Shown: positions 32,780 to 37,553 of the stretch, piece after piece
How the letters are laid out: each line of letters begins with the position of its first letter
How positions within the stretch are numbered: the first letter of the stretch is position 1
Assembly: GCA_001295935.1 (NCBI GenBank)
Contig: LJHX01000189.1
Span: 1 to 53,555 of the forward strand
Source of the DNA: an alpha proteobacterium AAP81b
GTDB lineage: Bacteria; Pseudomonadota; Alphaproteobacteria; Sphingomonadales; Sphingomonadaceae
Reading direction: 5' to 3'
Length of the DNA stretch: 53,555 nt
Position numbers and translations under genes: made by a program
The notes under the pieces: model-generated
Database searches by the model: none
Told to the model about the DNA's origin: nothing
Seen by the model: only the letters and a program-made list of their open reading frames with translations

Positions 32780-34083
<1,304 letters not shown>

Positions 34084-34084
<1 letters not shown>

Positions 34085-34311
34085 CAGTGGGCATCCACCA
34101 GATCGAGGCGACGCTCGATACGTTCGATTCGGACATCGAGCCGGTCCAACCGTTCATTGGTAAGCTGTTGGGCAGCAATCAGACCACGCATATGCGATCC
34201 CATAATGCCGACGCGGACATTGAGATCGCGGACTTCCTGCTTGATCTCAGCAACATCGCCCTGCATTTTCTGCAGGATCGACAGGATGAGCGAGCCATCG
34301 ACTTCGGTCAT
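34084..34311 (-). CDS. Small coiled-coil protein A in the nuo operon
   Basis: The 75-residue protein ([20 protein letters not shown]...) is helical with heptads and ends [15 protein letters not shown]. It is paralogous to the proteins at 34425-34652 and 36027-36272. I prefer the 34311 start because the upstream extension, up to 34428, is encoded by an R2 repeat and looks non-native. The stop codon overlaps the nuoF start, so it is translated with nuoF. Function is unknown; a scaffold or assembly role near complex I is only an inference. Confidence 0.7.
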
Positions 34312-34318
34312 GCTTGTC

Positions 34319-34340
34319 ATCCCGAGCTGTGTAGCGGGAT
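34319..34340. repeat. R2-class palindrome upstream of coiled-coil gene A
   Basis: ATCCCG and CGGGAT arms flank a 10-base loop, in a GTCATCCCG context like the copy at 32656-32676. It lies between coiled-coil genes B and A and extends the open frame of A artificially at its 5' end. Confidence 0.5.
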
Positions 34341-34424
34341 CGCCTTTGGGGCAGCCCGCTGGACGGCCAAAGGCGCTACCCATCGCCGGCGTTCTGCTTC
34401 GCAAGGCGCGAAGCGGTGTCGTCA

Positions 34425-34652
34425 TCATGGTGCTTCCACCAGGTCGAGGCGACGCTTGATTACCCGCAGGTCGCCCCGCATTTCATCGAGCTCTTCGCGG
34501 ATGCCCTGCAAGGTGACGACAACATTGGTCAGATGACCTTCGACGACAGTCTGGCGCAATTCGAGGCGATGGATATCGCGCTTGATATCGCCGACGTCGG
34601 CACGGATCTCGCGCAGCATCTGATCGAGAAAGGACAAATCGGCGCCGGTCAT
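34425..34652 (-). CDS. Small coiled-coil protein B in the nuo operon
   Basis: This 75-residue helical protein starts MTGADLSFLDQMLREIRADV and ends DLRVIKRRLDLVEAP, almost the same end as protein A. It overlaps the nuoE stop by four bases (ATGA), so it is coupled to nuoE. The heptad pattern suggests a coiled-coil oligomer. No known family was recognised. Confidence 0.7.
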   Translation of the reverse strand: MTGADLSFLDQMLREIRADVGDIKRDIHRLELRQTVVEGHLTNVVVTLQGIREELDEMRGDLRVIKRRLDLVEAP

Positions 34653-35296
34653 CCCGCCACCTCCAGCAGCGACGTCGGCCCGCCCTCGGGGCAACTCGCG
34701 GTGCGGCCGATCGCGCTGCCCGGCGTCGGCATCTCGCCGCGCGCCAGCGCTTCGAGGATCGCCGTCATGCTGTCGTAGGTCAGGTCTTCGTAATTGTCGT
34801 CGTTGATCTGGACCATCGGCGCATTGGCGCAGGCGCCGAGGCATTCGACCTCGGTCAGGGTGAACAGGCCATCGGGCGTACTGCCGCCCTTCTTCAACCC
34901 CTTGTCCTTGCAGGCGCGCATGATGTCGTCGCTGCCGCGCAGCTGACACGGCGTCGTGCCGCAGACCTGTACGTGGAAGCGGCCAACCGGCTTCAGATTG
35001 TACATGGTGTAGAAGCTGGCGACCTCATAGGCGCGGATATAGGGCATGCCGAGCTGGCGGGCGACGAACTCGATCACCGGCACCGGCAGCCACGCCGAGC
35101 CGGTCGCGTCGCGCATCTGATACTGCGCCAGCCAGAGCAGCGGCATCACCGCCGACGCCTGGCGTCCCGCCGGGTAGAGCGCGATGATCCGCGCTGCCTC
35201 GGCGGCGTTGTCGGCCGTCCAGGCGAAATCGACGAATTCGCGCGGCGGCGTGCCGGGGTTCTGCTGCGAGACCGGGGTGTAGGTCGAGGAGGTCAT
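34649..35296 (-). CDS. nuoE: NADH-quinone oxidoreductase subunit E
   Basis: NuoE is the 24-kDa-type subunit carrying the 2Fe-2S cluster N1a. The 215-residue protein has the thioredoxin-like fold with cysteines in CGTTPCQLRG and, later, VECLGACANAPMVQINDDNYEDL. ASFYTMYNLKPVGRFHVQVC is also typical. It is separated from nuoD by three small ORFs and from nuoF by two. A 25-codon ORF ends in an ATGA overlap with its start codon. Confidence 0.96.
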   Translation of the reverse strand: MTSSTYTPVSQQNPGTPPREFVDFAWTADNAAEAARIIALYPAGRQASAVMPLLWLAQYQMRDATGSAWLPVPVIEFVARQLGMPYIRAYEVASFYTMYNLKPVGRFHVQVCGTTPCQLRGSDDIMRACKDKGLKKGGSTPDGLFTLTEVECLGACANAPMVQINDDNYEDLTYDSMTAILEALARGEMPTPGSAIGRTASCPEGGPTSLLEVAG

Positions 35297-35370
35297 TTCG
35301 CGCTGTCCAGGGCGCTGAGGACCAACACGCGCCGCGCCACCGGCGCCCGTGCCTGTGCAGCGTCCTTCAT
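35293..35370 (-). CDS. Possible 25-residue leader ORF coupled to nuoE
   Basis: An ATG at 35370 opens a frame of 25 codons (MKDAAQARAPVARRVLVLSA...) whose TGA overlaps the nuoE ATG as ATGA. GGTGGAG lies 11 nt upstream of this ATG, while nuoE itself has only a weak Shine-Dalgarno. It could be a translated leader that delivers ribosomes to nuoE. The evidence is positional only. Confidence 0.3.
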   Translation of the reverse strand: MKDAAQARAPVARRVLVLSALDSAK

Positions 35371-35413
35371 CAACTAACTCACTCCACCTGCGGCCGCGGC
35401 GCCGCTGCGCCGA

Positions 35414-35578
35414 TTACAGCCGGTTGATGGCCATCCGCAAGACCATATAGGCGGCGCCGAGCAGCGTGATCAGCACCAGCAGGCTGGTGAATACGCCCGG
35501 CTCGCGCTGTGTCGACCAGAGCGCGAAATCCGCCAACAGCAGCGCGATGAACACCGATTCATTGTCGAGAAGTTGCAT
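35414..35578 (-). CDS. Putative 54-residue membrane protein in the nuo operon
   Basis: From the ATG at 35578 the frame gives MQLLDNESVFIALLLADFAL and a second hydrophobic stretch VFTSLLVLITLLGAAYMVLRM. The result is a two-helix membrane peptide. A longer version to 35650 is possible. No family was recognised. It lies between two other small ORFs and nuoE on the same strand. GAGG is very close to the start, so the ribosome binding site is not convincing. Confidence 0.4.
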   Translation of the reverse strand: MQLLDNESVFIALLLADFALWSTQREPGVFTSLLVLITLLGAAYMVLRMAINRL

Positions 35579-35701
35579 TGCCTCATCCACCCCCGATAGC
35601 AAGACCTGCGCGACGCGGCCGATCGCCGCCCCGCCGACCGTTCTTGGCACAGGACGGCGGCCGATGACAAATCCTGCCGGCTCGCCGGCCAGACGCCGCC
35701 T

Positions 35702-35950
35702 TCACGGCCCACGGTCGCGCTGCTCGCGACGCGCCTCCAGCCTGGGCGTCACAAAGCCGTCCCAAACGGCATAGCGCAGCACGGCCAGGATCGTGCCGAG
35801 CGCGGCCGGGAGCACGACCAGCGTCGGCAAGCGGAGGAAGCCGGCATAGCTGGCACAGCCCAGGACGAAGCCCACGATACCGATCGCGTCGAGCAGCCGC
35901 GCGTGACGATGCATCAGGTCGTCGGCCGCGGTGATTATCCCCCAAAGCAT
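35702..35950 (-). CDS. Putative 82-residue membrane protein in the nuo operon
   Basis: From the ATG at 35950 the frame encodes MLWGIITAADDLMHRHARLL, then two adjacent hydrophobic segments (AIGIVGFVLGCASYAGFL; TLVVLPAALGTILAVLRYAVW), and a charged tail (RLEARREQRDRGP). The open frame extends to 36067, overlapping coiled-coil gene C. It may be a small inner-membrane protein. The function is unknown. Confidence 0.45.
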   Translation of the reverse strand: MLWGIITAADDLMHRHARLLDAIGIVGFVLGCASYAGFLRLPTLVVLPAALGTILAVLRYAVWDGFVTPRLEARREQRDRGP

Positions 35951-36026
35951 CACCGGCCGGCGGTCTTCGGGCAAGGGCGGAGACAGCCCAACCACGAGGC
36001 AATGCCCGGATCGCAACGTGCCGGGC

Positions 36027-36272
36027 TCATGCTTCGACGAGGCTGAGCCGGGTTTCAATGCGATCAAGGCGATGCTCGATCCGGTCGATCCGCTTGTGGG
36101 TGCCCGAGACCGTCACTTCCACCGACGCAATCCGCGCCGACATGCTCGCAGTGGCTTCCTCAAGGGTTGCGACTCGGCCTTCGATGTCGCCGAGCTTGAG
36201 CAAGATCTGCGACATCTGGCCCTGCATCTTGCGCAGGATCTCCAGCATCAGTTCATTCGTCGCTTCGGGCAT
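36027..36272 (-). CDS. Small coiled-coil protein C in the nuo operon
   Basis: The 81-residue protein begins MPEATNELMLEILRKMQGQM and ends DRIEHRLDRIETRLSLVEA. Heptad repeats are very clear (IDRIEHRLDRIETRL). It is 33 nt after the nuoD stop and resembles proteins A and B at both ends (IL.KMQ near the start; RL.LV near the end). Repeated duplications within one operon suggest a function connected with the complex I genes, though this is inference. Confidence 0.7.
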   Translation of the reverse strand: MPEATNELMLEILRKMQGQMSQILLKLGDIEGRVATLEEATASMSARIASVEVTVSGTHKRIDRIEHRLDRIETRLSLVEA

Positions 36273-36305: not shown

Positions 36306-37553
36306 TCACCGATCGACCTCGCCGAAAACGATATCGAGCGACCCCAGGATCGCCGGCGCATCGGCGAGCATATGGCCCTTGCAGAGGAAATCCATCGCCT
36401 GGAGATGCGCCATGCCCGTCGCGCGGATGTGGCAGCGATAGGGCTTGTTGGTGCCATCGGCAACCATGAAAACCCCGAACTCGCCCTTGGGGCTTTCGGT
36501 GGCGACATAGACCTGCCCCGCCGGCACGTGCAGGCCTTCGGTATAGAGCTTGAAATGATGGATGAGCGCTTCCATCGAGCGCTTCATCTCGCTGCGCGAC
36601 GGCGGGCTGACCTTGCGGTCGAGCGTCGCGTGGCGGCCGGCGGGCATCTGATCGAGGCACTGGTAGATGATTCGCAGCGACTGCCGCATCTCCTCCATCC
36701 GCACCATGAAGCGCGCATAGCAATCGCCGTCGTCGGACACCGGCACGTCGAAGTCCATCAGATGATAGGCGTCATAGGGCTGCGACTTGCGTAGGTCCCA
36801 CGCCACCCCCGAAGCGCGGATGCACGGGCCCGTGAAGCCCCAGGCGATCGCATCTTCCTTGGAGATCACGCCGATATCGACATTGCGCTGCTTGAAGATG
36901 CGATTGTCGGCGACAAGGCCCTGCATCTCGTCAAGGACCTTGAGATAGCCGTCGGCCCAGGCGCGGATATCACCGAGCAGCCCGTCGGGCAGGTCCTGGT
37001 GGACGCCGCCGGGGCGGAAATAGGCGGCGTGAAAGCGCGCCCCGGAGACGCGCTCGTAGAAGCCGAGCAGCGCCTCACGTTCCTCGAACATCCACAGGAT
37101 CGGCGTCATCGCGCCGACGTCGAGGGCGTGGGCGGTGACGTTGAGGATGTGGTTGAGGATGCGGGTGATTTCGGCGAACAGCGTGCGGATGTATTTCGCC
37201 CGCAGCGGCACCTCGATGCCGGCGAGCTTCTCGATCGCCAGCACATAACTGTGCTCCATGCACATCGGGCTGACATAATCGAGGCGGTCCATATAGGGCA
37301 GCGCCTGGAGATAGGTCTTGTATTCGCAGAGCTTTTCGGTGCCGCGATGGAGGAGGCCGATATGCGGATCGCAGCGCTCGATCAGCTCGCCGTCGAGTTC
37401 CATGACCAGCCGCAGCACGCCATGCGCCGCCGGGTGCTGCGGCCCGAAGTTGATCATGTAGTTCTGGATGTCGTTGCCGGGCTTCGACGGCGGCAGCACG
37501 TCGGCGGTGTCTTCGGCGGTCCAGGCGACGGTGGAGGCGGCGAGATCAGCCAT
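36306..37553 (-). CDS. nuoD: NADH-quinone oxidoreductase subunit D
   Basis: NuoD is the 49-kDa-type subunit lining the quinone pocket. The 415-residue protein has [16 protein letters not shown] near residues 31-46, with the quinone-region His, and [12 protein letters not shown]. It also has [18 protein letters not shown] and ends with [12 protein letters not shown], the usual C-terminus. Its start overlaps the nuoC stop by one base (TGATG). Confidence 0.97.

Follow-up and report, generated by a model that had tools for sequence, protein, structure and literature searches.

Introduction

Bacterial complex I is usually portrayed as a core of 14 subunits, joined in some Alphaproteobacteria by a few extras of mitochondrial type, and among other small proteins of respiration UbiK is a coiled-coil protein of the Pfam family BMFP. 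The extras of Paracoccus denitrificans complex I are NDUFS4, NDUFS6, NDUFA12 and a PIMT subunit (PMC11522691), and three complex I extras are also found in PMC8115037. UbiK (YqiC) acts as an accessory protein of the ubiquinone-synthesis complex (PMC9499169), and CydX, of 37 residues, is a small subunit of cytochrome bd (PMC4325964). Here we describe three small proteins, A (75 residues), B (75 residues) and C (81 residues), which are encoded among nuoD, nuoE and nuoF of complex I in the alphaproteobacterium AAP81b (Sphingomonadaceae), on a stretch of 53,555 nucleotides (contig LJHX01000189.1 of assembly GCA_001295935.1; hereafter the window). Their sequences and genomic settings lead us to suggest, with slightly less than even confidence, that A, B and C were recruited to serve the peripheral arm of complex I as slot-specific, probably trimeric helpers.

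Like the supernumerary subunits of Alphaproteobacteria, A, B and C are small, non-core and linked to complex I, in their case by gene location. In contrast, NDUFS4, NDUFS6 and NDUFA12 are absent among their Pfam and NCBIfam matches up to an E value of 1, and the term 'coiled-coil' is absent from the main text of PMC11522691. UbiK is alike in outline, as a small coiled-coil protein serving the assembly of a respiratory enzyme, but has other partners, and up to the same E value none of the three proteins matches its Pfam family. CydX resembles them as a very small part of a respiratory complex; to our knowledge it has no coiled-coil kinship. A literature search for such proteins in nuo operons, with most subscription journals outside its coverage, yielded none that we recognised. 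We regard A, B and C as candidates for undescribed helpers of a respiratory enzyme.

A, B and C lie among the genes of complex I

The minus strand of the window carries nuoA to nuoF, of which nuoA to nuoC were named by eye and the other three by NCBIfam models above their cut-offs: nuoD at 36306-37553 (NF004739 and TIGR01962), nuoE at 34649-35296 (TIGR01958) and nuoF at 32780-34084 (NF010120 and TIGR01959). On the same strand, C (36027-36272) begins 33 nucleotides past the nuoD stop, the ATG of B (34425-34652) overlaps the nuoE stop (ATGA), and A (34084-34311) lies between B and nuoF, its stop overlapping the nuoF start (TGATG). These positions and both overlaps agree with a preliminary description of the locus made from its letters, as does the lack of a match between any of the three proteins and a known complex I subunit in Pfam or NCBIfam. 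About 730 nucleotides holding two other small open reading frames (ORFs) separate C from nuoE, so that C is uncoupled from that gene.

The coupling extends beyond the window. Among the 47 distinct copies from other nuo operons with a readable upstream gene, the called start, assigned automatically, overlaps the upstream stop in 34, and TGATG or TAATG is frequent ahead of the next gene. These overlaps, together with a ribosome-binding-like stretch for B, GGAGGTGG, inside the end of nuoE, would also suit translation-coupling spacers, that is, in-line cistrons that tune ribosome flow and the NuoD/E/F/G ratio whatever protein they encode. We consider such a role quite improbable, as the slots carry related proteins and not arbitrary frames, relatives without any nuoE-nuoF spacer are common, and the protein itself is under purifying selection. 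A usable synonymous rate was obtained for 70 of 73 pairs of nuo copies that share at least 75% identity, and their ratio of nonsynonymous to synonymous substitution rates (dN/dS) had a median of 0.18 and a maximum of 0.44; the pairs overlap and are not independent, and a few records repeat one genome. It is the protein and not the frame alone that is maintained.

Kinship and form of the three proteins

Judged by their sequences, A, B and C are homologous and members of one real family. A is 32% identical to B and 41% identical to C. Shuffling of residues within heptad positions, repeated 1000 times, never reached the local scores of A-B and A-C and reached that of B-C twice. A profile built from 35 members outside nuo operons gave 59.8 bits for A, 66.8 bits for C and 27.0 bits for B, the most divergent of the three, and shuffles scored as high in 0, 0 and 4 of 1000 cases, respectively. 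The paralogy proposed in the preliminary description is therefore upheld by scores above the heptad-preserving shuffles. Its shared protein pattern stands insofar as all three are homologous coiled coils, and not as a short helix followed by an end pattern, since one helix runs nearly throughout.

A chance likeness of unrelated coiled coils could be argued from the Pfam, NCBIfam and Protein Data Bank (PDB) matches, which are generic and, where cut-offs are given, below them. This explanation is very improbable in view of the shuffles, which almost never reach the observed scores, and of the full-length colinear alignment, in which A, B and C share their ends with the family, from an N-terminal L-x-L-E-x-L-(R/K)-x-(I/M) to a C-terminal R-I-E-R-R-L-D-L, and internal gaps measure 7 or 14 columns. 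In addition, nearly all matches at the examined loci are short complete ORFs. For A and C, chance is unlikely. The case is weakest for B (4/1000), yet a close relative of B occupies the same junction.

No Pfam or NCBIfam model was matched by A, B or C at its cut-off, and the matches obtained were generic coiled coils. The best profile match was phrog_5553, a viral family to which PHROGs assigns no function, with residues 9-72 of A at an E value of 1.9e-7. It matched 17 of 24 members at an E value of 0.01 or better, although it has no curated cut-off, coiled-coil bias was uncontrolled and other coiled-coil families match too; the family may have an old link to viral proteins. NF048001, the family of the gene transfer agent head formation protein RCAP_rcc01685, was the NCBIfam model that most members matched (8/24, best E value 3.2e-5). 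Its scores remain far below the cut-off of 50 bits (A 13.6, C 17.0, B unlisted), and only the last third of C matches. A profile search of the PDB returned generic coiled coils only, many of them trimeric constructs. One query of the L071 type found no match in phage records, and plasmid records held one match to C (Acidiphilium cryptum, 42%). The family is sparsely scattered across Alphaproteobacteria and, within the libraries searched, without a described function.

Members of the family are each one unbroken heptad helix of about 67-89 residues, with the C-terminal end near the R-I-E-R-R-L-D-L motif. In A, B and C alike, the hydrophobic period is 3.50 residues and both halves keep the same a/d register. 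AlphaFold2 modelled A as a single helix over residues 3-74 (mean predicted local distance difference test score 95.8, predicted template modelling score 0.58); such a lone long predicted helix is compatible with a coiled-coil oligomer and is no proof of one. Of the 87 members, 78 carry the trimer motif R-h-x-x-h-E within their last 25 residues (47/51 nuo copies and 31/36 others), compared with 14.2 on average and never more than 24 when heptad-preserving shuffling was repeated 200 times. Because the members are related, the count reflects conservation and not 78 independent cases. A carries the motif as RIERIE near its C-terminus and C carries several, while B has only RLDLVE at its very end. 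In both A and C the motif falls in the register g-a-b-c-d-e, which is the one given for parallel trimers in PMC5940361. From these sequence features we infer that the family proteins most likely form parallel three-stranded coiled coils.

Family members concentrate in nuo operons of Sphingomonadaceae

In a scan of 397 Sphingomonadaceae genomes, 42 matches were found in 28 genomes, and 27 of them, in 21 genomes, lie in nuo operons at the nuoD-nuoE (D/E), nuoE-nuoF (E/F) and nuoF-nuoG (F/G) junctions, with one between nuoC and nuoD. Placement was by locus and by tblastn of nuo genes; of the 27, one (genome G668) is weak, and two of the 42 are parts of long frames (L099 and L100, in frames of 2987 and 445 residues) that were not accepted as members. 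The other 15 comprise two between sdhA and sdhB, two between sucC and an etfB-like gene, two beside a 2Fe-2S subunit gene, the two long-frame stretches and seven with assorted neighbours. A scan of 326 genomes of the order, overlapping the first, gave 25 matches in 14 genomes, all Sphingomonadaceae, with 18 of the matches in nuo operons. At class level, 42 matches occurred in 30 of 385 genomes; 36 came from outside Sphingomonadaceae, of which 35 were fetched, and some ten class-level matches at the weak end (below about 36 bits) are doubtful as members. The genome scans scored 14-17 first-look candidates per genome, which makes all these counts lower bounds, and they share genomes, some of which appear both under a G number and as a named record (L081 and L136, like L087 and L135, share one protein). 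A search for named loci, biased by its use of a nuo copy as query, yielded 24, of which 16 are in nuo operons, including those of Sphingomonas citri, S. folli, S. yunnanensis, S. gei, S. phyllosphaerae and S. albertensis, and eight are without nuo genes.

Closer to the window, its own genome (G000) holds five members. Besides A, B and C, a copy on C197 follows a PHA-synthase-like gene (NCBIfam match below cut-off), and a copy on C194, which has an internal stop, adjoins a xanthine-dehydrogenase-type 2Fe-2S subunit gene (match below cut-off). Scanning 24 genomes of the genus revealed other members only in G010, located in the nuoE-nuoF gap, in G013 and doubtfully in G004, whose match lies within a frame of 778 residues and was rejected. 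With the single sequence of A as query, family members turned up in only two of 41 near genomes. The location in nuo operons goes far beyond scatter over a genome of 3-4 Mb, and the nuo link is real and confined to the window's own family, Sphingomonadaceae. Scatter of homologues through unrelated operons, which would speak against the preliminary description, is half the picture: 27 of 42 family matches lie in nuo operons, and unrelated operons house two of the five members in the window's own genome and all 35 matches fetched from outside the family.

Some copies beyond nuo adjoin other respiratory genes. A member lies between sdhA and sdhB of complex II in L098 (1498-1752) and L184 (1528-1779), from two genomes of one genus (G707 and G737), the genes being named by NCBIfam above cut-off in L098 and by likeness to L098 in L184. 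Another position, between sucC and an etfB-like gene, is occupied in L089, L110 and L112 (genomes G668, G499 and G934); of these only L112 was scanned, and the etfB matches are below cut-off. Since both sites belong to other enzymes that feed electrons to quinone, we count them in favour of recruited helpers. In L069 and L071, from two genomes, a member stands between genes for a molybdenum-hydroxylase-type flavin adenine dinucleotide subunit and an AAA ATPase, in what looks by eye like a carbon monoxide dehydrogenase-like cluster; only L071 was scanned, with matches below cut-off.

Separate lineages occupy set junctions

Three copies in the order nuoD-cc-nuoE-cc-nuoF-cc-nuoG, where cc is a coiled-coil gene, are present in S. 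folli RHCKR7 (L143) and in a Sphingomonadales metagenome-assembled genome (L149). S. citri RRHST34 has two nuo copies. To relate the copies to their junctions, we used a tree of 87 members and 76 columns with many weak forks, which omits non-nuo rows below 45 bits or above 110 residues and several class-level loci. With five labels, the four junctions and non-nuo, the tree needed 10 changes compared with a shuffled mean of 42.6; near-copies in the tree aid such clustering by label. Nuo versus non-nuo alone needed four changes, where shuffling gave a mean of 27.8 for the non-nuo label; the D/E label took five and the E/F label six. All seven F/G copies form one supported clade (99/89), with which the C197 copy of the window's genome groups though it is located elsewhere.

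A, B and C belong to three separate supported groups, and the nearest relative of each comes from another genus. A groups with a D/E gene of G499 (L075) and B with the E/F gene of G606 (L096), that is, at the same junction. C groups with the first gene past nuoD in L085 and L141, in a supported group of four that includes the long-branched sdh copy L098. Because their nearest relatives lie in other genera, A, B and C are not recent local duplicates, and the tree rules out a recent tandem duplication in the window's operon. The repeated duplication inside the operon put forward in the preliminary description, and with it selection for dosage, is not supported by these groups or by G013, the closest relative found (NuoE 92-93% identical), which lacks all three genes.

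A few possible traces of rearrangement were also considered. Open frames of 478-500 residues in G513 and G776, which looked like NuoD-coiled-coil fusions, were rejected, as the nuoD frame stops 13 nucleotides past the called start of the small gene. A deletion scar at the nuoE-nuoF junction of G013 was not upheld, much the same letters being present in G014. In L085 (G677), a second version of the last 30 nuoD codons, at 77% identity, stands between nuoE and the small gene and is a remnant of partial duplication at the D/E junction.

Whole-ORF differences between close relatives

The nuoD-nuoG stretch is about 95% identical among S. folli, S. citri, S. yunnanensis and S. phyllosphaerae, and within it the small genes differ as units. 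Compared with its three relatives, S. folli has 227 extra nucleotides, one ORF (L143 8427-8657), exactly at the nuoF-nuoG junction. This difference is flanked by a short GAGT repeat, which could allow clean loss. In S. phyllosphaerae, a different family member occupies the E/F junction (L147 6881-7123), swapped as a whole ORF: DNA identity drops to 47-63% over three inner windows of 60 columns, and the likeness recovers towards the start and stop codons. Across 22 nuo operons of the window's genus (L027-L048), the genes flanking the D/E and E/F junctions may overlap or stand more than 1 kb apart, and these gaps hold diverse small ORFs. By eye, these include SnoaL-like, cupin-like and tiny membrane proteins, as in a small-cargo hotspot within a core operon.

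Such ORF-sized differences between flanks of about 95% identity are what operon passengers would leave behind. In this explanation, the main rival, the proteins have a generic, non-respiratory or weak function, and the junctions accept any small ORF that keeps start-stop coupling, so that genes come and go. It is a real possibility, although to us a somewhat doubtful one. Its case is strengthened by the other small ORFs that fill the same gaps in other species of the genus, by the varying lengths of these gaps and by the unrelated genes that the family adjoins elsewhere. Several observations weigh against recruited helpers. As the D/E and E/F gaps hold many unrelated small ORFs, the junction evidently tolerates passengers. 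At this sensitivity nuo copies occur in only 21 of the 397 family genomes, close relatives being without one, so that complex I works in its absence. Elsewhere the family adjoins unrelated genes, many neighbours of the copies outside nuo operons having nothing to do with respiration, and none of the 35 fetched matches from outside Sphingomonadaceae had nuo genes in flanks of up to 1.5 kb. Finally, nuo copies form part of the search profiles themselves (5/24 rows in profile A3 and 22/43 in A5), which favours finding further nuo copies. On the other hand, the share of matches in one operon (27/42), slot lineages that cross genera, the recurrence at sdhAB and etfB-like genes and a dN/dS near 0.18 all exceed what passive insertion sites predict.

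Putative helpers of the peripheral arm

We favour recruited helpers over passengers because of the concentration in nuo operons, the lineages by slot, the coupling, the selection and the recurrence at dehydrogenases that feed quinone. Under this proposal, copies would have been recruited into the nuo operon within Sphingomonadaceae, and separate lineages would have settled at set junctions, after nuoC, nuoD, nuoE or nuoF. With each gene encoded in line with a neighbouring subunit, the rod would be made by the same ribosomes, bind Nuo subunits and, as a trimer, serve the NADH-oxidising peripheral arm as an accessory factor close to where it is made. It might help NuoD/E/F/G to fold, to take up flavin and iron-sulphur clusters or to join; alternatively, it may stay in the complex as a stabilising extra subunit.

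A wider form of this idea, which we think unlikely as a whole, is that sphingomonads use exchangeable trimeric coiled-coil helpers, one per junction, for complex I, complex II and an electron-transfer flavoprotein. Each lineage would serve one neighbour subunit co-translationally, and whole ORFs would be gained, lost or swapped to retune the complex. If helpers they are, a lineage-specific layer of small coiled coils between nuoD, nuoE, nuoF and nuoG, exchanged among close species, would represent a new route to accessory parts. The operon of a core metabolism can evidently gain and lose whole genes with its translation coupling intact, and natural species pairs that differ by exactly one such ORF make the helper idea directly testable.

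Other features of the locus

The spacer of 113 nucleotides between B and A (34312-34424, minus strand) gave weak short matches to eight other places in the genome (E values 0.007 to 0.63) and is perhaps repeat-like; an open frame runs through it, extending A upstream. In the nuoD-nuoE gap, two small ORFs on the minus strand, at 35414-35650 and at 35702-36067 (probable start near 35950), look by eye like membrane proteins and have no Pfam match, and an ORF similar to the first is found in G013, also in the nuoD-nuoE gap. Past nuoF (32780-31046) follow an SRAP-like ORF and then an inorganic pyrophosphatase gene, both named by eye. The nuo cluster is split in the window's genome, nuoA-F ending with nuoF and nuoG lying on another contig (G000:C192:12242-13726); in other genera of Sphingomonadaceae, nuoF and nuoG are often adjacent.

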